Assembly (NCBI RefSeq): GCF_016904885.1
Contig: NZ_JADWYI010000001.1
Span: forward strand, 124,001 to 188,000
Reading direction: 5' to 3'
DNA length: 64,000 nucleotides
Source: Archangium primigenium
GTDB lineage: Bacteria > Myxococcota > Myxococcia > Myxococcales > Myxococcaceae
A model generated the notes under the pieces. It made no database searches, was not told the DNA's origin, and saw only the letters and a program-made list of their open reading frames with translations. Positions 53,573 to 62,110 of this stretch are shown here, in pieces (positions within the stretch are counted from its first letter, which is position 1; the number at the start of each line of letters is the position of its first letter). The position numbers and the translations under genes were made by a program.

Positions 53573-56500
53573 TTACCGGCAAATGTCCCGCTCGCGCAGC
53601 GGGTTGAGATGGCCCGAGGCGTTGTCTCCCGTGAGGGAACGCGCGTAGAGACCGCCCTCCCAGACACCATCCGTGAAGGACACATCCGCCGTGGGCGCAA
53701 GCACGGTGCCCTGGAAGCTGTAACTCGAGGTGGTCAACGATGTTGCCTCCGGGAAGTTGAAGAGAACGCCCTTCGCATCGATCCCTCCCACCAGATCCTG
53801 TCCCAGGTTGGAAAAGGACACCGCCGTTCCCCGAACGTTGATGACCGCCAGCGAGCCCGCCGGCGCTTCAATACGAATCAATGTCGAGCCTGGAAGCAGA
53901 GTGCCCTCCAGGTTGAAGACGTTGACCTCGGAGGAGGTTCCCTTCAACAAGATGGCACCCCAGGAGAGTTCCACCGTCCCGTTCACGGAGAGCGCGGAGA
54001 GACGAGATGAGAGAGTCTTCAACAACGTCTCCCTGGCCTCGAAGTCAACTGGCCTTCCTGACGAGACCGTACCGCGAAGGAAGTTGACCGAGTCATTCGC
54101 GGAGAAACGGCCGCCATACCGGACATCTCCCCACACACCACCGCGTGAGAGCGAGATGTCTCCGCCCCCGACCAGTACATTGGAGATGTCCGTATCCGGA
54201 AGCGATCTACCCACGGAGAAGTCATCGAGAACGATGTTGCCGCCCGCCGCGACCCGGCCCTGGACATAGTGCCCCTGAAGAAAGTCCTTGAGGACAAACA
54301 GGTTGTAGTCGCCGAGGCGGATCTGAATGCATTCGCCATCACCGTCCCCGCCGCCCTCGGGAACATCGTGTGCCTCGACGTACACCGAGATGCTCGTGAA
54401 GACCGCACCATTGCGAATGGCAATCGTTGCGACCCCAGGGCGCTCCCCGCGCACAATGCCATCGCCCGTCACCGCTACGACCTCCGTATTGGAACTAGAA
54501 TACACAGTTCCATGAATAGGAGAAGAGATGTCTCGACGGACGCCATCCGCATAGACGCCAAGCACGCGCAGTCGTCGCTCAGCTTTGGGTAAAAGGAGCA
54601 CGTCTTTGTTGAGCACCTCGACGGCCACCAACGGCGTCTTGAGGTCCACAGAAAGGGAGATTCGCTCCGACCTTAACAACTCGCCCCCATCACCAATGCC
54701 CACCGCGACAAGATCAGCAGCACCAACTACCGACGAAGGAACCACCCATTCGAAAACAAAAGGTGCCTGTTCGAGGTAGAGCGTTTGTCCCGCCGCCACG
54801 ATGTACACCAGCGAAGGATTGAATCCTCCAGTCGGAGTCACGGAGATCGTCACACGCTCACCGGGAGCAACAGGCGCCCTCACCGATGGCGTGCTGATGG
54901 CCAAGCCGCGACGCAGCAAAGACTGAAACGCACTGATTCCGCTTCCGACATCAGCCGAAGACCTCAAGCCCTCATGACCCAAAACGGGAAGACCACCCCG
55001 CTGTGAACCATTTGCCGACGACAGAACCGGAGCGCCCTTCGTCTTGAAACAACCATAGTCCACGCTCACACGAGCCGGGCTCTCGAGGAACGGAGTGAAC
55101 TGATTGCCCCCCGCCTGACTGTTCAACAATTCGACGAACCGCGAGGTATGAGCCCGCTCGAACGGAGCCAAATGGTGGGCCGTGAGGCTGTTGCGCGGTG
55201 TCGCCAAATTGAATGTCTCGATGAAATTGCTGAACTTGTCAGCCGTATTTCCACCCTTCTGCTCAGACTCGGACACGAACATGTCGAAATCGTCATCACA
55301 AAAGACCTTGCTCTTCAGGCCAAAAACGAAATCGCTGTCCTTCACCCCCAACTCGGACTTGGCGTAGGGGTGGTAGACACTCATGCTGGCATACAAGGGC
55401 TTCAGCCGGTCCGGGACATAGCCCCACTGCAGAGCATTATCGAACGAAAGCGATCCCACTTTGCCCTTCGTGCTCACCATCAAGTGAGAAGGGATACTCG
55501 TCTGGCCAATGCTTCTGACATAAGCGCTCCCCAACGCCAGATCATCTACCGCCGACCCCTCCTCGATACCGATCCTAGAGATGACCAAACCATCCCGAAT
55601 GTCTTCCCAGTCAACCAAATCCTCCACCCCCCGCCTGTCAGCATCTTGAACCGCATTGCGCATATCCACGATCGCGCTGGCTAATCGCATCCCCAAGTGC
55701 GGCGTGTTCACGGAAATGAACCGATTCACATACCCCGTCTTGAAATTATCGCGCGCACGGTACTCCTCGGAGTCAACAAACTTTCGGACGAGCAAACCTC
55801 CAGCACCATGAGCGATGACGTCCACCTGACTCACCGCGGCCCCCGCCAAGCGCATGTCCAACAACGCATCCCGTATCGCATCGCGGACAACGGATTGGTT
55901 CAAGGGCGAGTGCAGACTTTCGGAATTGTCCTCACGATAGTCCGCGCAAGACACCGCGAAGCGATTGTGCTCGTCCACGAAAAGAGGAAAAACATTCTTC
56001 CACGAGACGCAGCCCGCCCAGACATCAGGAACGATGACCACCGGAGGACGAATCACGGACAAAGCCAAGACGCCTTCGAAAGCCATTACCGTGGGAGGCT
56101 CCGCATCGAAGTACCGCGCCACGATGTTCACGTCCCGCCTCGACTTCTGCGCGCACTCTCCTTCCGGGCTATTACAGAAGTCCTCGGGACTGGTGTACAC
56201 CGCGAACGCAAAGTACTGGGCCCCCACTGGAGTGGCAGGCACGTTCACCCGAGTGTCCGCGGGACTGGTCCTGCCGACATCGACAAGCGTCCCACTCTGC
56301 GTGCCTCCGATTTCGGGCAAGGAGAACTCGACTAGGCCAGGGCCTGGAACCTCGACGCGAAGAAGTATTTCCGACACTCCATCGGCTGCGACCTCGCTCA
56401 CGGGCTTGCCCTTTCCCACCAGACGCCTCACATCTGAAAAAGTGTGTCCCGTCGTGACATCAATCAGTTCCGGATTCGGATTCACGGCTTCAATGACCGA

Positions 56501-57349
56501 GAGGGTGAAGTTATCGAGCACCACCGTGGAATCCAGGAGTCCGTCACCCGAGTCGCGGATATCGAAAACCAGCGTGACGACACCGGTGCTCTCGACCTTG
56601 AAGTTTGCCTTCTGCAAACCCGTCATCCCCGCGTCCGCGAAGATCTGGATTTGAGGTAGATAATTTGGAGGAAACGAGTCAAGACCTTGAGGATCATCAG
56701 CCATCAAGAACTCGAACCCGGTTCCCCCTGCTCTTGTCTCGGAAACATCATAGAAAAATGAACTGTCCACCGAGGCATACGCGACTTGCCTGCGCCCATT
56801 CGCATCCGTCAGATTCACACTGAACGCGTCATTATAGTCAGATCCGACGTATTCGGGAGATTCCGCGCTCAAGAAGTGGTAGTCGAAAGAAATGCGGTGA
56901 CTCCCCTTGGGCACATTGAGCTTGAGTTCGAGCGTCACGGCATCGCCATCGAACCCACTGGGCGCGAAGTCCGTTCCTGGTTCGGGTAGTGCTCCGTCAT
57001 TCATGACGAGGCCTGTACTCAGCACGGCCAATGACGTCCCCTTGCGCGGCTTGATGACACCGTAATTATCAGCAATGATTGTCGCTCGCGCGTCCGAGCT
57101 CACGAGCCGCGCACTGGCAATCAGTTCCTTCGGAATGTCCAAGGCCGCGGCCACGTTCAGAGCATCTACCGCCGTCCGCGAGGCACCGTCCGCCTCGACG
57201 ACCAGGTTGTTGCTTGCAAAAGCCCTCCGCTTGGAGACGGCAGCGGTATTGGATCCACTACGCGCTCCCGGCTCCGAACGGCCTGGGCTGTCACATGCGG
57301 CTACCGCGCACAACGCAATCCAGAAAACAGTCAGTCTTGTCGACTTCAT
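53573..57349 (-). CDS. large lipoprotein: choice-of-anchor L + inactive lipase-like + Big_2-like + choice-of-anchor A
   Basis: 1258 residues from ATG 57349 (GGAG upstream). Signal FWIALCAVAAC (Cys19). Residues about 45-285 match the choice-of-anchor L pattern (SNNLVVEADGASRTAVDALNV...SAESPEYVGSDYNDAFSV...VVLDNFTLS). About 435-740 is an alpha/beta-hydrolase fold (RPPVVIVPDVWAGCVSW, VDVIAHGAGGLLVRKF, RFISVNTPHLGM) where the nucleophile Ser of the usual HSxGG elbow is Gly515, so lipase activity is unlikely. About 960-1040 is Big_2-like (LRVLGVYADGVRRDIS...VVAVTGDGIVRG). The rest (about 1045-1250) is choice-of-anchor A (LGDYNLFVLKDFLQGHYVQGRVAAGGNI). Low GC here marks possible transfer. Probably exported and surface-attached. 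Confidence 0.85.
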   Translation of the reverse strand: MKSTRLTVFWIALCAVAACDSPGRSEPGARSGSNTAAVSKRRAFASNNLVVEADGASRTAVDALNVAAALDIPKELIASARLVSSDARATIIADNYGVIKPRKGTSLAVLSTGLVMNDGALPEPGTDFAPSGFDGDAVTLELKLNVPKGSHRISFDYHFLSAESPEYVGSDYNDAFSVNLTDANGRRQVAYASVDSSFFYDVSETRAGGTGFEFLMADDPQGLDSFPPNYLPQIQIFADAGMTGLQKANFKVESTGVVTLVFDIRDSGDGLLDSTVVLDNFTLSVIEAVNPNPELIDVTTGHTFSDVRRLVGKGKPVSEVAADGVSEILLRVEVPGPGLVEFSLPEIGGTQSGTLVDVGRTSPADTRVNVPATPVGAQYFAFAVYTSPEDFCNSPEGECAQKSRRDVNIVARYFDAEPPTVMAFEGVLALSVIRPPVVIVPDVWAGCVSWKNVFPLFVDEHNRFAVSCADYREDNSESLHSPLNQSVVRDAIRDALLDMRLAGAAVSQVDVIAHGAGGLLVRKFVDSEEYRARDNFKTGYVNRFISVNTPHLGMRLASAIVDMRNAVQDADRRGVEDLVDWEDIRDGLVISRIGIEEGSAVDDLALGSAYVRSIGQTSIPSHLMVSTKGKVGSLSFDNALQWGYVPDRLKPLYASMSVYHPYAKSELGVKDSDFVFGLKSKVFCDDDFDMFVSESEQKGGNTADKFSNFIETFNLATPRNSLTAHHLAPFERAHTSRFVELLNSQAGGNQFTPFLESPARVSVDYGCFKTKGAPVLSSANGSQRGGLPVLGHEGLRSSADVGSGISAFQSLLRRGLAISTPSVRAPVAPGERVTISVTPTGGFNPSLVYIVAAGQTLYLEQAPFVFEWVVPSSVVGAADLVAVGIGDGGELLRSERISLSVDLKTPLVAVEVLNKDVLLLPKAERRLRVLGVYADGVRRDISSPIHGTVYSSSNTEVVAVTGDGIVRGERPGVATIAIRNGAVFTSISVYVEAHDVPEGGGDGDGECIQIRLGDYNLFVLKDFLQGHYVQGRVAAGGNIVLDDFSVGRSLPDTDISNVLVGGGDISLSRGGVWGDVRYGGRFSANDSVNFLRGTVSSGRPVDFEARETLLKTLSSRLSALSVNGTVELSWGAILLKGTSSEVNVFNLEGTLLPGSTLIRIEAPAGSLAVINVRGTAVSFSNLGQDLVGGIDAKGVLFNFPEATSLTTSSYSFQGTVLAPTADVSFTDGVWEGGLYARSLTGDNASGHLNPLRERDICR

Positions 57350-57415
57350 CGTCTCGACTCCATGACAACCAAACACTCAGGACGGCTTGAGCGAAGAGCG
57401 TGAATAGAAATAAAA

Positions 57416-57449
57416 TTGGCCATCCGGCAGGACAGCACCGGATGGCCAA
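57416..57449 (-). terminator. intrinsic terminator after the Hint-domain gene
   Basis: Perfect 12-bp arms TTGGCCATCCGG and CCGGATGGCCAA (57416-57427 and 57438-57449), 10-base loop. On the minus strand the stem is followed by TTTTATTTCTATT, a proper T-tail. A second weaker hairpin (GGAGCGC/GCGCTCC, 57468-57474 and 57485-57491) lies just after the stop codon at 57499. Ends the transcript before the 53573 gene. Confidence 0.88.
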
Positions 57450-57498: not shown

Positions 57499-59367
57499 CT
57501 ACCGCTTCCCGACAGACAACAGGTAGTCCCGATGCCACTTCGCGGGCAGCAAGGCCAGCACGTCACCTTGCGTACGGGGCGATTGCGCCATGAACTCGTA
57601 CTTCGTCTGGATTTGACTATCGCCCACCAGGAAGCCATTGGCGTACATCACGGTCTGCTCGTCCGAGAGGGCCTTCTTCTCGTCGGCGGTCCCCAACCTG
57701 AGATTGAACACCTTGCCGGTGTACGCATGACGCTCCACAAGCACCAGCTTACTGGGCCCGGTCTTCGTCATGACAACGTCCCCCTTGCGCAGATCCTTGG
57801 CCTGAACCATTCCACGGGCCACGACCTGGATGGGATGCATCTCGGTCATCGAAAGGACGCGCGCAGCCTCGTCCTTGATACGAACCATAGGGGAGCGCTC
57901 TATACCGCTCGACTTGTCCATGACCGTCAGCGAGGACCGCGCCGAGTTGGAGATCAACGCGCCTGACTGCACAGACTCGATGGCCGCCGCCTCCCCTGAG
58001 GCCAGCTCAATCATCGTGCCTTCGGCGAGACAGCTGTTGAGGATGGCCATCTTCTTGAACGAATAATCCCGACGAATCAGGGCATCGTTGGACAAGGTAA
58101 TGGACGAACTGTACTCCGTGCTTGAGTTCGTCGCCCCGACGAATGGCAGTTTGATAATCGCCACCATCTTGATGTCTTCGCCCGTCAGGCGGCAGCCCTT
58201 GCCAAAATACACGGGATTGATGCCCGAAAGGTCCCACGAGAACCGACTTTGTCCCTCGTCCACACGAACACTATTCCAAAACTGCTTCATGCCCGCGTGC
58301 AGGGTATTGGGCTCGATGAATTCACACCCCCCCCCCGTCGGAGTGAAGATCAGCCGGATGGATCCTGCGTCATCCCGATGACGGTTCGCGTTCAGATCGT
58401 CTCGAATCGCCTGGATCTTCCGTACATCGAACAGGTGCTCCTTCTGCACCCGCACCGAGCCCTTGAAAGGCATCACCACCATGTGAGCCTCCGTAGGAGG
58501 CACACGGTAGTCGCAATCGTCCCCTCCCCGGTCCAGACACACAAAAATGGTGTTCTTGTTGTCGAGGTTCTTGAGATCGACGGGGTGATCGACGATCAGA
58601 TCATACCATTTCGGAGGACCAACGGAGGGGGCGGCGCTTCCAATCTCGGAGTAGACGAACGAGTCCGTGAAGCCAGTCACCGAGTCCTCCATCTTGTAGG
58701 ACGAAACTCGATACAGACGACCACGGGTCCGGTCCAAATAGCTAACGGCATTCGCCACAGTATTCTTGCCGTTGTTGAAATCCTCCGTCTGAGATAGGTC
58801 GCCCAGGGGAAAACCGCCAGCGTCGGTATAGCTCACGTCCACGTACGTGTAATATGCGCCGCGTGGGTAGGTGGAACTCGCGGAGCCCGCGCCCTCGTTC
58901 GGACGGCTCGGATCACTCCCCGCGCTTGCCGCCGAAATGAAGTGCATCTCTTGAAGATCCGATGCTTGGGAGAGCCCCTGGTCCTGCTGGGGCAGGAGGC
59001 CCGTCTTGTAACCTTTGGCCAAGTGGAGTTGGCGCCGCTCCTCCACGGACTGGAACAATTGTGGTGAGTTCTCTGGCGTCTTACCCGCGAGCTTGAGCCG
59101 AGCCATGGCGAACCGGTGCTGTTGGGGGTCCGCGAAGTTCAAACGAATACGCACGTCCGGCCGGGTCAGTGAATGCACGTAGCGCTGATCAGCCATGTAC
59201 AGCGAGTATTCCGACGGAGTCAGTCGGCCATAATCGCCGAGTGATTTCTCGCTGTAGCCCTGAGCCGCAGATTGCGCCGCCTCATCCGTATTTGCTCGAC
59301 AGGAAGCAAGCAGACTCAAACACGTGACACCTACCGCGCCCAACAGGTAGCTCCGATTTCGCATCAT
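57499..59367 (-). CDS. lipoprotein with C-terminal Hint (self-processing) domain
   Basis: 622 residues from ATG 59367 (AGAGG and AAGGGG upstream; ATG 59364 is adjacent). Signal MMRNRSYLLGAVGVTCLSLLASC (lipobox LASC, Cys23). Residues about 24-445 have no recognised family but include SDLQEMHFISAASAGSD and an Asp/Cys-rich middle (VCLDRGGDDCDYRVPPTEAHMVVM). About 446-585 is a Hint domain: nucleophile C446 in NSCLAEGTMIELASGE, TEMH (Thr508/His511), GMVQAKDLRKGDVV, and ANGFLVGD (576-583). No terminal His-Asn-(Ser/Cys) splice pair is seen. Lower GC than the genome. Activity is inferred from motifs. Confidence 0.85.
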   Translation of the reverse strand: MMRNRSYLLGAVGVTCLSLLASCRANTDEAAQSAAQGYSEKSLGDYGRLTPSEYSLYMADQRYVHSLTRPDVRIRLNFADPQQHRFAMARLKLAGKTPENSPQLFQSVEERRQLHLAKGYKTGLLPQQDQGLSQASDLQEMHFISAASAGSDPSRPNEGAGSASSTYPRGAYYTYVDVSYTDAGGFPLGDLSQTEDFNNGKNTVANAVSYLDRTRGRLYRVSSYKMEDSVTGFTDSFVYSEIGSAAPSVGPPKWYDLIVDHPVDLKNLDNKNTIFVCLDRGGDDCDYRVPPTEAHMVVMPFKGSVRVQKEHLFDVRKIQAIRDDLNANRHRDDAGSIRLIFTPTGGGCEFIEPNTLHAGMKQFWNSVRVDEGQSRFSWDLSGINPVYFGKGCRLTGEDIKMVAIIKLPFVGATNSSTEYSSSITLSNDALIRRDYSFKKMAILNSCLAEGTMIELASGEAAAIESVQSGALISNSARSSLTVMDKSSGIERSPMVRIKDEAARVLSMTEMHPIQVVARGMVQAKDLRKGDVVMTKTGPSKLVLVERHAYTGKVFNLRLGTADEKKALSDEQTVMYANGFLVGDSQIQTKYEFMAQSPRTQGDVLALLPAKWHRDYLLSVGKR

Positions 59368-59473: not shown

Positions 59474-60739
59474 TCACCAAGACCCAGGCATGCGCTTCTC
59501 CGTGAGTCCGCAGTAGTCATTGCCCTGGCTCAGGTCACTGAAGAGCAATACATTAGGAATTCCCTTGGGGTCACCCACACAGTAAAGGCTGGCAGAATCC
59601 TGGAGTCCGGACCTGACATGAGCAGGAGTCGCGTCCAGGTAGGCACTCAAGTACAGCGCCGAAGTTCCAGCGACGTGTGCGCTCGCCATGGACGTACCAC
59701 TCAGTGACCGAGTAGACGCGGAATCACCAATCCAGGCGCCAAGAATGTCTGTCCCTGGAGCAAAAATGTCTACACAGCTTCCCCAATTCGAGAAGCTGGC
59801 GCGCCTGTCCTCTTCGTCAATGGCGGCGACGGTGATAACGTTCGCCGCGCCCGCAGGCGAGTTCTCGCACGCATCACGGTCCTCGTTACCCGCAGCGGCC
59901 ACAAATGTAACGCCCCGCGTCACCGCATTTTCCAGGGACTGATTCAGTGCAACGCTCACCGCACCGGTCACGCTCATGTTTGCGACGCACAGTCTCTTAG
60001 CCAGACAATCACGATGAACGAAGTCCACTCCAGCAAGGACGCCAGACAAGGAGCCCCTCCCCTGACAGTCCAATACGCGCACTGGATGGACAAGCGTCTG
60101 ATTGGCCATGCCATAAGCCGTTCCCGCCGCGGAACTACTCACGTGCGTGCCATGGCCGTTGCAGTCTTCGACGCCCAGACCGTCGTTGATGGCTGTAAAT
60201 CCTCCATCAAGTCGGCCCGTGAACTCAGTGTGCTTCGTATTGATTCCAGTATCCAAGACATACAGGTGGACGCCAGCGCCAGTCCGGCCGTGATCGTTGT
60301 ACAGTCCATCCCGTCCGCTCCGCTGATCCACCCTGTCTACGCCCCACGCAGGGCTCTCCGACACGGCGGCCAGCTCGAAGAACTGACTTTCCTCGACATA
60401 GGCCACATATGGATTGCGGCGAATCCAATCCAGGGCCATGTCGTCCAGGTGCGTAGCGAAGCCAGACACAACCGCGTACTGGTACAGCAGTCGATTGGGT
60501 CCTCCAGCCTGCGACACCCAATCCGAGACCGACTCCGTGGCGGCCTCCGGCAATCCCGGAACAAAGACGACAATGTACTCGCCTGGAATACGAGTCTTCG
60601 GCGGTGCATTGTGGAGCGGAGCGAAGTAATCGTCCGGTACGGGAGGACGAGGCACCATGGGCGCCTGAATTTCATTACACCCTAGACTCCACCCAAGCGC
60701 CAACACCCCCCACCATGCAAGAGAGTCGTGGCGCCTCAA
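59474..60739 (-). CDS. subtilisin-like serine protease (S8, proteinase K type), exported
   Basis: About 421 residues if started at TTG 60739 ([21 protein letters not shown], a convincing export signal; the last Cys fits a non-standard lipobox). The frame is open upstream to ATG 60946, with ATG 60889 also possible, but that part shows no domain. Inhibitor I9-type propeptide ([27 protein letters not shown]...[25 protein letters not shown]) leads to the catalytic domain with VLDTGINT (Asp163), GHGTHVSS (His196), AAAGNED (oxyanion Asn285) and GTSMAS (Ser350), all intact. Active, extracytoplasmic protease. Confidence 0.85.
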
Positions 60740-61145
60740 TCCCCATGAACGCCATCCTATTGCCCTGATTGGTACGGTCTTGTCCGCTTGTACGTCGATG
60801 GGCCCACCGAAAACCACGGGCAGGAACAGACGGCTCGCCGCACGAACGGCACCCCCAGTCAAACCGCTCCACAACCAGTTCAAAGACATGGGCGCTGAGG
60901 AACCCCTGTCCGCGCAGCGGCTCCATCTTTTCAGTATCGAATTCATCGTTCGCTACTGAAGAGTCGTGCCGCAGGCCCTCTATGCAGTATTTCTCGTCTT
61001 CCAGGATTGCTTCAATTTTGCATTGAGGCGAGGCATCAGCGGAGCGTGCACCCTCGAGCGACAGCCCGGCTCACGCCGGACGCTGCACACCACGCGCAGG
61101 GTGATGTCATGGGCGAGAGCACACAACCCCACGCTAACGCCGAGA
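60740..61145. other. 406-base stretch upstream of the protease, no clear gene
   Basis: Between the chosen protease start and the IS630 transposase end there is no convincing coding sequence. The 60740-60946 part is in frame with the protease and could be an N-terminal extension, but has no recognisable domain. The remaining 200 bases up to the element (61135) have mixed composition and must hold the protease promoter. Confidence 0.45.
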
Positions 61146-61676
61146 TCAGTTGAGCTGAGGGAAGGAAAGGCAGTGGCGGAACCAGGCGGAGAGCTTCGCG
61201 AGGGAAGTTGAGGCGCGAAGCCGCCGCACGGTCTGGCGCAGGTCAGCCAAAGCGCGAGGCTCAAGGCGGCGCAGATGCCGCTTGAGGTCCGCCCACCACA
61301 GCTCGATGGGGTTGAAGTCAGGGCTGTAGGTGGGCAGGTACACCACGCAGGCGCCCACGGCCGCGATGGCCTGGCGTACGCCCCGCACCTTGTGGGCGCC
61401 CAGGTTGTCCATCAGCACGATGTCTCCGGGCCTGAGCCACGGGCAGAGCCGCTCACGCACGAAGCTCAGGAAGACAGCACCGTTGACGGCTCCGCGGTGC
61501 GTCATCAGCTTGGGGCGGCTGTCCAGGCGGATGGCACCTATCAGGGTCAGGCTCGTCCACCAGCCGCCCGGACGCAGACCCACGGCGCGCTCACCCACGG
61601 GGGCCCAGCCGTACTCGCGCGTCATGCAGGTGTTGCAGAAGGACTCGTCCAGGAAGACGAGTCGACGGGCATCCAC
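61146..61676 (-). CDS. IS630 transposase catalytic part (orfB), joined to orfA by frameshift
   Basis: 176 residues if read from GTG 61676; the translated fusion actually enters this frame at the A7 run at 61753-61759 and adds KSLVATERDAPPNLWRRR before LVDARRLVFLDESFC. DDE-type catalytic residues: VFLDESF (first Asp), VLMDNLGAHK (second Asp) and SPDFNPIELWWADLKR (Glu), all intact. Ends FRHCLSFPQLN at the left terminal repeat. Cleaves and joins DNA at TA sites. Not likely translated alone. Confidence 0.85.
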   Translation of the reverse strand: MDARRLVFLDESFCNTCMTREYGWAPVGERAVGLRPGGWWTSLTLIGAIRLDSRPKLMTHRGAVNGAVFLSFVRERLCPWLRPGDIVLMDNLGAHKVRGVRQAIAAVGACVVYLPTYSPDFNPIELWWADLKRHLRRLEPRALADLRQTVRRLRASTSLAKLSAWFRHCLSFPQLN

Positions 61677-62110
61677 GAGGCACAGCAGGGCGGCGATAAT
61701 CCTACGACGCCAGAGGTTGGGGGGCGCGTCACGCTCGGTGGCGACGAGGGACTTTTTTTGTGTGAGAAACCCAGCCGGTGCAGGGCGCGCTGAAGCGAGG
61801 GGCGGCTGGTGACGACGCCCGTGCGCGCCTTCAGCTCGCGGAGCAACTCCCGCACGGTGGCCCCCGGGCGCTCGCGCACCAAGCGCTTGAGTTGCTCGGC
61901 CACCGCCCCTCGCAGAGGCGAGAAATTGCCACCCCCTCGCGGCCGGGGCGTGACGTCGCCCGTCTCCCGATGCAGCCGAAGGACTCGGCTGACCGTGGCT
62001 TGCGCTACGCCCAGCAGGTGGGCGATGCGCGCGTAGCTCATGTCCTCCTCGTGGAAGGCCCGAACAATCGCCTGCCTCAGCTTCTCCGGGGTGGCCTGAC
62101 CGACGCTCAT
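61622..62110 (-). CDS. IS630 transposase DNA-binding part (orfA)
   Basis: 162 residues from ATG 62110 but only the first ~118 are family-like: helix-turn-helix regions AIVRAFHEEDMSYARIAHLLGVAQATVSRVLRLHRETG and GATVRELLRELKARTGVVTSRPSLQRALHRLGFSHKK. The homologous frame then breaks at AAAAAAAG (61753-61759, minus strand) and continues in the -1 frame as orfB; the remaining ~45 residues in this frame are out-of-frame sequence. A -1 slip at the run gives HKKKSLVATERD..., a full-length transposase of about 325 residues. Confidence 0.85.
   Translation of the reverse strand: MSVGQATPEKLRQAIVRAFHEEDMSYARIAHLLGVAQATVSRVLRLHRETGDVTPRPRGGGNFSPLRGAVAEQLKRLVRERPGATVRELLRELKARTGVVTSRPSLQRALHRLGFSHKKSPSSPPSVTRPPTSGVVGLSPPCCASWMPVDSSSWTSPSATPA
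61753..61759 (-). promoter_or_regulatory. A7 slippery site for -1 frameshift in the IS630 transposase
   Basis: On the minus strand CAC AAA AAA AGT: the tRNA on the second AAA can move back one base and still pair with AAA, after which AAG-TCC-CTC is read, joining orfA to orfB. Programmed frameshifting at such A-runs is well known in insertion sequences; transcriptional slippage or a plain inactivating mutation are the alternatives. Confidence 0.7.

Follow-up and report, generated by a model that had tools for sequence, protein, structure and literature searches.

A predicted lipoprotein of Archangium with a C-terminal Hint domain that retains candidate cleavage residues and has no canonical splicing end

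The window analyzed here, a 64,000-nucleotide stretch of Archangium primigenium DNA, carries on its minus strand a gene (57499..59367; ATG at 59367, stop at 57499) for a 622-residue lipoprotein with a C-terminal Hint domain, which we call LipHint. An earlier sequence-only reading had picked out this open reading frame; its coordinates hold and its strand is minus, the plus strand being interrupted by stops. An AGAGG motif just 5′ of the ATG favors the start at 59367, and a sigma-70 promoter scan at the locus gave no match above chance. The predicted product begins with a signal peptide and an L-A-S-C lipobox (59299..59367, minus; Cys23 codon at 59299-59301), so that its description as a lipoprotein stands, with lipidation as a prediction. 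A 47-kDa N-terminal half follows (residues 24-445; 58033..59298, minus), the second module of which (residues 262-445; 58033..58584, minus) contains a CLxRxxxDCDY motif, and then the Hint domain itself (residues 446-583; 57619..58032, minus), ending in Gly582-Asp583, and a basic C-terminal tail of 39 residues (57502..57618, minus) with a conserved W611..D614 and a predicted helix. The predicted scissile bond, Ser445-Cys446, lies at the Cys codon 58030-58032, and the TEMH motif is encoded at 57835-57846 (minus). Cysteines occupy positions 16, 23, 277, 285, 348, 392 and 446, and of these Cys446 alone falls within the Hint part.

Directly upstream on the same strand lies a gene for an S8 subtilisin-like protease (59474..60946, minus) with an I9 propeptide, an intact Asp/His/Ser triad and a lipobox-like ...SLGC; its real start is probably inside this open reading frame. 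Four aligned orthologues of the protease carry a Cys-rich C-terminal domain (CxGLCGG...CFC...CC) that the window copy does not have, and two adjacent open reading frames directly upstream of the protease gene (61146-62110) resemble a split IS630-type transposase. On the other side, a gene for a large lipoprotein of 1267 residues (53573..57376, minus) combines choice-of-anchor L, a lipase-like fold without the nucleophile Ser, and choice-of-anchor A. Between it and LipHint, just 3′ of the LipHint stop, is a strong terminator-like hairpin of the intrinsic type (57416..57449, minus; 14 pairs and then a T-run), and the downstream gene therefore probably has its own transcript; an operon of the two genes was rejected for the window on this ground, despite their conserved position. 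An active lipase as partner was likewise discarded: in all five aligned copies of the downstream lipoprotein the nucleophile Ser of G-x-S-x-G is replaced (HGAGG, HGMGG, HGIGG), and to judge by these motifs its lipase-like region is likely a pseudo-enzyme.

The residues by which the Hint domain and the lipobox had been recognized, Cys446, TEMH (Thr508/His511), ANGFLVGD (576-583) and L-A-S-C23, are all present in the translated sequence. A search with Hint and Vint families, proposed as a check, succeeded at the level of the family, whereas the matches of the single sequence to Pfam stayed below the curated cut-offs: Vint, the best in the region, scored 21.2 bits against a gathering cut-off of 27, with Hint_2 and PT-HINT weaker, and NCBIfam returned no match. 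Across 38 relatives, matches rose to 5e-8 for Vint and 2e-7 for Hom_end_hint, and a Hint-only profile built from 18 Hint segments found the solved BIL4 domain 2lwy as its best PDB sequence match (E 3e-11), together with Prp8 inteins (4.5e-9) and PI-SceI (1e-6). The AF2 model has a pLDDT above 90 across most of the domain and deviates from solved inteins, BIL domains and Hedgehog by about 1.5-1.8 Å; alignment scores are Z 19.3 for BIL2 (6y75; 131 residues, 1.5 Å), Z 17-19 for several inteins, Z 18.1 for Drosophila Hedgehog (1at0) and a weaker Z 11.2 for the Vint structure 8r2c. Profile matches and fold alignments together put the Hint identity of LipHint beyond chance; on the modeled structure, residues 446-583 are a complete and genuine Hint domain with the horseshoe fold.

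Conservation was assessed in 94 long relatives from two genome searches, all within the window's myxobacterial family. Cys446, Thr508, His511, Gly582, Asp583 and Gln587 are identical in every one of them, and five of these residues, all except Thr508, are also invariant in the full-length relatives from Pseudoalteromonas, Tistrella, Azospirillum and Embleya; Thr508 becomes Ser in two of these distant proteins, those of Azospirillum and Embleya. The residue before Cys446 is usually a small one, mostly Ser (79/94), sometimes Ala (6/94) or Gly (4/94), with Asn at −2 in 83/94. At the other end of the domain, the His-Asn pair of inteins is replaced by the invariant Gly582-Asp583 (94/94), and the next residue varies freely (L, N, S, G, D, A, K, M or V). 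The claim that splicing residues are missing thus holds for the His-Asn pair and for a fixed +1 nucleophile, and needs amending at the terminal Asn position, which is occupied by an invariant Asp. Since both the His-Asn pair and the fixed nucleophile are missing, splicing of exteins by LipHint is unlikely, and the alignments support the view that the domain keeps an invariant cleavage apparatus without a canonical splicing end.

The fixed Asp583 raises a further scenario, a double cleavage of the B-type BIL kind, in which a cut at Cys446 would be joined by a second cut after Asp583, freeing the basic 39-residue tail. Asp583 sits where inteins end in Asn (the terminal residues of the GyrA, PI-SceI, Ssp DnaE and RecA inteins lie opposite it, as read solely from the ends of the alignment ranges), some inteins are reported to end in Asp, and the tail, marked by W..D, is kept by most members and across class boundaries. 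The penultimate His, however, is Gly in all members, the residue after Asp583 is unconstrained, one branch of 11 of the 94 relatives has no tail, and a predicted ordered helix speaks more for docking of the tail than for its release as a peptide. We regard a second cut as very improbable.

The family reaches well beyond the myxobacteria. Named records with LipHint relatives come from Myxococcus, Corallococcus, Archangium and Hyalangium, and plasmid and chromid records add Pseudoalteromonas (27% identity over 88% of the length), Tistrella, Azospirillum and Embleya. Relatives from Gammaproteobacteria, Alphaproteobacteria and Actinomycetota align along the N-terminal half, the Hint domain and also the tail; the family spans at least four bacterial classes, with identity falling to 20-30%, and many genomes hold several copies. 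No relative was found among viral contigs or phages, and a viral origin was set aside. Relatives in several Archangium-type genomes (L038, L039, L044, L050, L051, L053 and L054) occur in tandem pairs, some beside a gene for a patatin-like phospholipase; in Azospirillum (L175:5569-8617), genes annotated as tryptophan 7-halogenase and LodA/GoxA family CTQ-dependent oxidase converge tail to tail on the Hint gene.

A second family of secreted Hint proteins, shorter at about 300-480 residues, was seen in loci L062-L070 (for example, L064:5160-6236 and L067:7119-8243). It follows the pattern EASCYTPDQ ... T.EHP ... GFLVGSxRFQN and sits in a conserved cluster of its own, alongside genes for beta-propeller and HEAT-repeat proteins and unknown genes; in L065, L067 and L070 an S8 protease is encoded a few kilobases away, and one member (L066:9559-10659) has Phe at the position of the Hint Cys.

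The N-terminal half had been said to belong to no known family, and at the sequence level this is borne out by the absence of any match in Pfam, NCBIfam or PDB sequences; it nevertheless accompanies the Hint domain as a conserved unit in several bacterial classes. Cys277 and Cys285 are invariant, and Cys348 and Cys392 nearly so. Modeled alone, this half is predicted with confidence (pTM 0.86) to comprise one short helical segment and two modules rich in beta structure. A known fold was sought and rejected: the best structural matches, which fall on beta-sandwich regions in transglutaminases and adhesins, are at about Z 6, the background level, and the Foldseek matches have a query TM near 0.2. 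In one metagenome-assembled genome, a gene facing a LipHint relative in convergent orientation (L033:2069-4024, the same as L074) joins the second N-half module to a VWA domain that replaces Hint; eukaryotic Vint proteins also pair VWA with Hint.

Where the lipid sits matters for what a cut at Cys446 would yield. The N-terminal half had been proposed to be released, but the anchor is on that half, so cleavage would instead free a 19-kDa C-terminal Hint fragment and leave the N-terminal half attached. The anchor is itself variable: the lipobox Cys is present in about 54 of the 94 relatives (one member was re-scored by eye), and in about 40 it is replaced by endings such as SAGW, SAWA or ASALPAGG. 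The tree shows at least three changes of lipobox state and none of the Hint residues, which argues that Hint function is independent of the N-terminal lipid. Signal peptides are not obvious by eye in the Tistrella, Azospirillum and Embleya proteins, suggesting that even export is not universal in the family. As far as the sequences tell, lipidation is not a defining feature of the family; the catalytic residues are the same without it.

The suggestion that the protease next door might be a partner gains weight from gene order. The window LipHint falls in a supported tree branch of 17 members, and in the fetched flanks an S8 gene lies directly upstream on the same strand in all 17, as compared with 0 of the 77 other members; two of the listed S8-LipHint distances are distorted by over-long open reading frame starts. 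The gene for the 1267-residue lipoprotein is downstream in 16 of the 17 (the contig ends in the 17th) and again in 0 of 77 outside the branch. In Myxococcus and Corallococcus, the three-gene block is embedded in a longer conserved gene order with an M36 protease, and in the window and locus L160 the cassette is kept with flanking genes unlike those of Myxococcus and Corallococcus; a deltaproteobacterial metagenome-assembled genome keeps the last two cassette genes. Because most of the 17 loci share this wider synteny, the protease link represents fewer than 17 independent settings. Two Pseudoalteromonas loci have an M4 protease gene, its product bearing PKD and GEVED domains, that stops 10-13 bases upstream of the Hint gene, so a protease lies upstream of the Hint protein with two unrelated protease families. 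Most LipHint paralogues have no adjoining protease; protease signatures beside them amounted to scattered HExxH motif matches at about 2-4 kb, none adjacent, and were dismissed.

The conserved protease also lends itself to a reading in which the Hint domain does not cleave at all but is a stable binding or shielding fold, cut, if ever, by the S8 enzyme. The case for LipHint self-cleavage is built from sequence and model, and the invariance of its residues could also reflect a structural or ligand-binding role. Against this, a purely structural domain would hardly be expected to hold Cys446 and His511 invariant over four classes at 20-30% identity, and we give a non-cleaving domain little credence. 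By fold and residues, LipHint likely undergoes an N-S acyl shift and is cleaved ahead of Cys446.

We posit, with moderate confidence, that an exported and anchored precursor cuts itself at Ser445-Cys446, autocleavage proceeding mainly by hydrolysis or with an unspecified small nucleophile. The signal peptide would be removed and Cys23 lipidated, as the lipobox implies. In the folded Hint domain, Thr508 and His511 would assist an N-S acyl shift that converts the Ser445-Cys446 bond into a thioester, as fold and invariant residues suggest. Once water or an external nucleophile had attacked the thioester, the products would be a 47-kDa anchored N-terminal half and a 19.3-kDa basic Hint fragment. 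In the window's branch, the S8 protease may act in the same process, as conserved gene order hints, most simply if one partner matures or trims the other.

The identity of the nucleophile separates this self-cutting by hydrolysis from ligation in the Hedgehog manner, whereby a specific alcohol, amine or glycan would resolve the thioester and the C-terminus of the N-terminal half would be joined to a lipid or cell-surface molecule. The first step, the N-S acyl shift, is common to inteins and Hedgehog, and the Hint fold aligns closely with 1at0 (Z 18.1). Hedgehog D46 is the active-site Asp that activates sterol; an Asp opposite it in the hhalign alignment is kept in 70 of the 94 relatives, among them each of the 40 that have no lipobox Cys, but the match depends on the alignment, hhalign pointing to D484 and hmmsearch being off by two. 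Although there are no non-Asp members without a lipobox, the change from Asp to Thr is a single event on the tree, so the link to lipidation is likewise one event, and a tie between Asp loss and the lipobox was rejected as no evidence. LipHint, moreover, is already predicted to bear an N-terminal lipid, and no sterol-recognition region was recognized in a tail of just 39 residues, which 11 relatives do without. We consider such ligation rather unlikely. A broader form of the idea, in which a bacterial Hedgehog-like maturation joins the C-terminus of the N-terminal half to a lipid, amine or glycan with a dedicated secreted protease in the pathway (S8 in myxobacteria, M4 in Pseudoalteromonas), strikes us as speculative and likewise rather unlikely.

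Hint autoprocessing is well understood for inteins and Hedgehog; to our knowledge, the natural roles of bacterial Hint domains besides inteins and toxins are nearly unknown. With cleavage residues kept throughout the relatives examined, several copies in many genomes, a spread over at least four classes and a gene-order partner, the LipHint family offers a concrete system in which to ask what purpose a self-made C-terminal thioester would serve on a surface protein, whether it would be taken by water, an amine, a lipid or a glycan, and whether Hedgehog-like lipidation occurs in bacteria.

Each known Hint system shares part of this arrangement. The family does not show the intein hallmarks of a terminal Asn, a penultimate His and a +1 Cys/Ser/Thr, and ends in Gly-Asp where A-type BIL domains end in His-Asn. 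B-type BIL domains agree with it in motif pattern, having Hint motifs without the canonical C-terminal motif, and N-terminal cleavage would be expected in both. BIL domains, however, are described from hypervariable regions of non-conserved proteins (PMC7765530), unlike the LipHint Hint domain, which invariably closes a protein of conserved architecture at its C-terminus. Hedgehog (1at0) has in common with LipHint the N-terminal Cys, T-x-x-H, the fold and the C-terminal placement in an exported, lipid-anchored protein, and differs in its sterol-recognition region, none having been recognized in LipHint; the position equivalent to D46 is ambiguous and holds Thr, Ser or Ala in 24 of the 94 relatives. 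Vint (PF14623; 8r2c) gave the best, sub-threshold Pfam match, but the VWA-Vwaint-Vint architecture was not found in LipHint, Pfam detecting no VWA. PT-HINT (PF07591) is likewise found in secreted bacterial proteins and has weak profile similarity; in contrast to PT-HINT polymorphic toxins, LipHint has no Pfam domain after residue 583, only the tail. Some relatives already carry the NCBI label "Hint domain-containing protein". Closest in description is a small group of bacterial proteins that carry a Hint-like domain at the C-terminus, "yet another subgroup" in the relevant passage of Buerglin 2008 (PMC2362128), which sets it apart from intein, Hog and BIL and includes Myxococcus xanthus and Stigmatella proteins (MXAN_6253, STIAU_1829) and Photorhabdus plu1731. 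As that passage portrays it, the group shares with LipHint the C-terminal Hint domain, signal peptides in some members, two conserved upstream Cys and a myxobacterial distribution; by description it may correspond to the long LipHint family or to the shorter secreted family of 300-480 residues, and the passage gives no operon, catalytic survey or function for it. The apparently new elements are an architecture shared at full length across classes, the strictly kept Gly-Asp terminus and the cassette with the protease.
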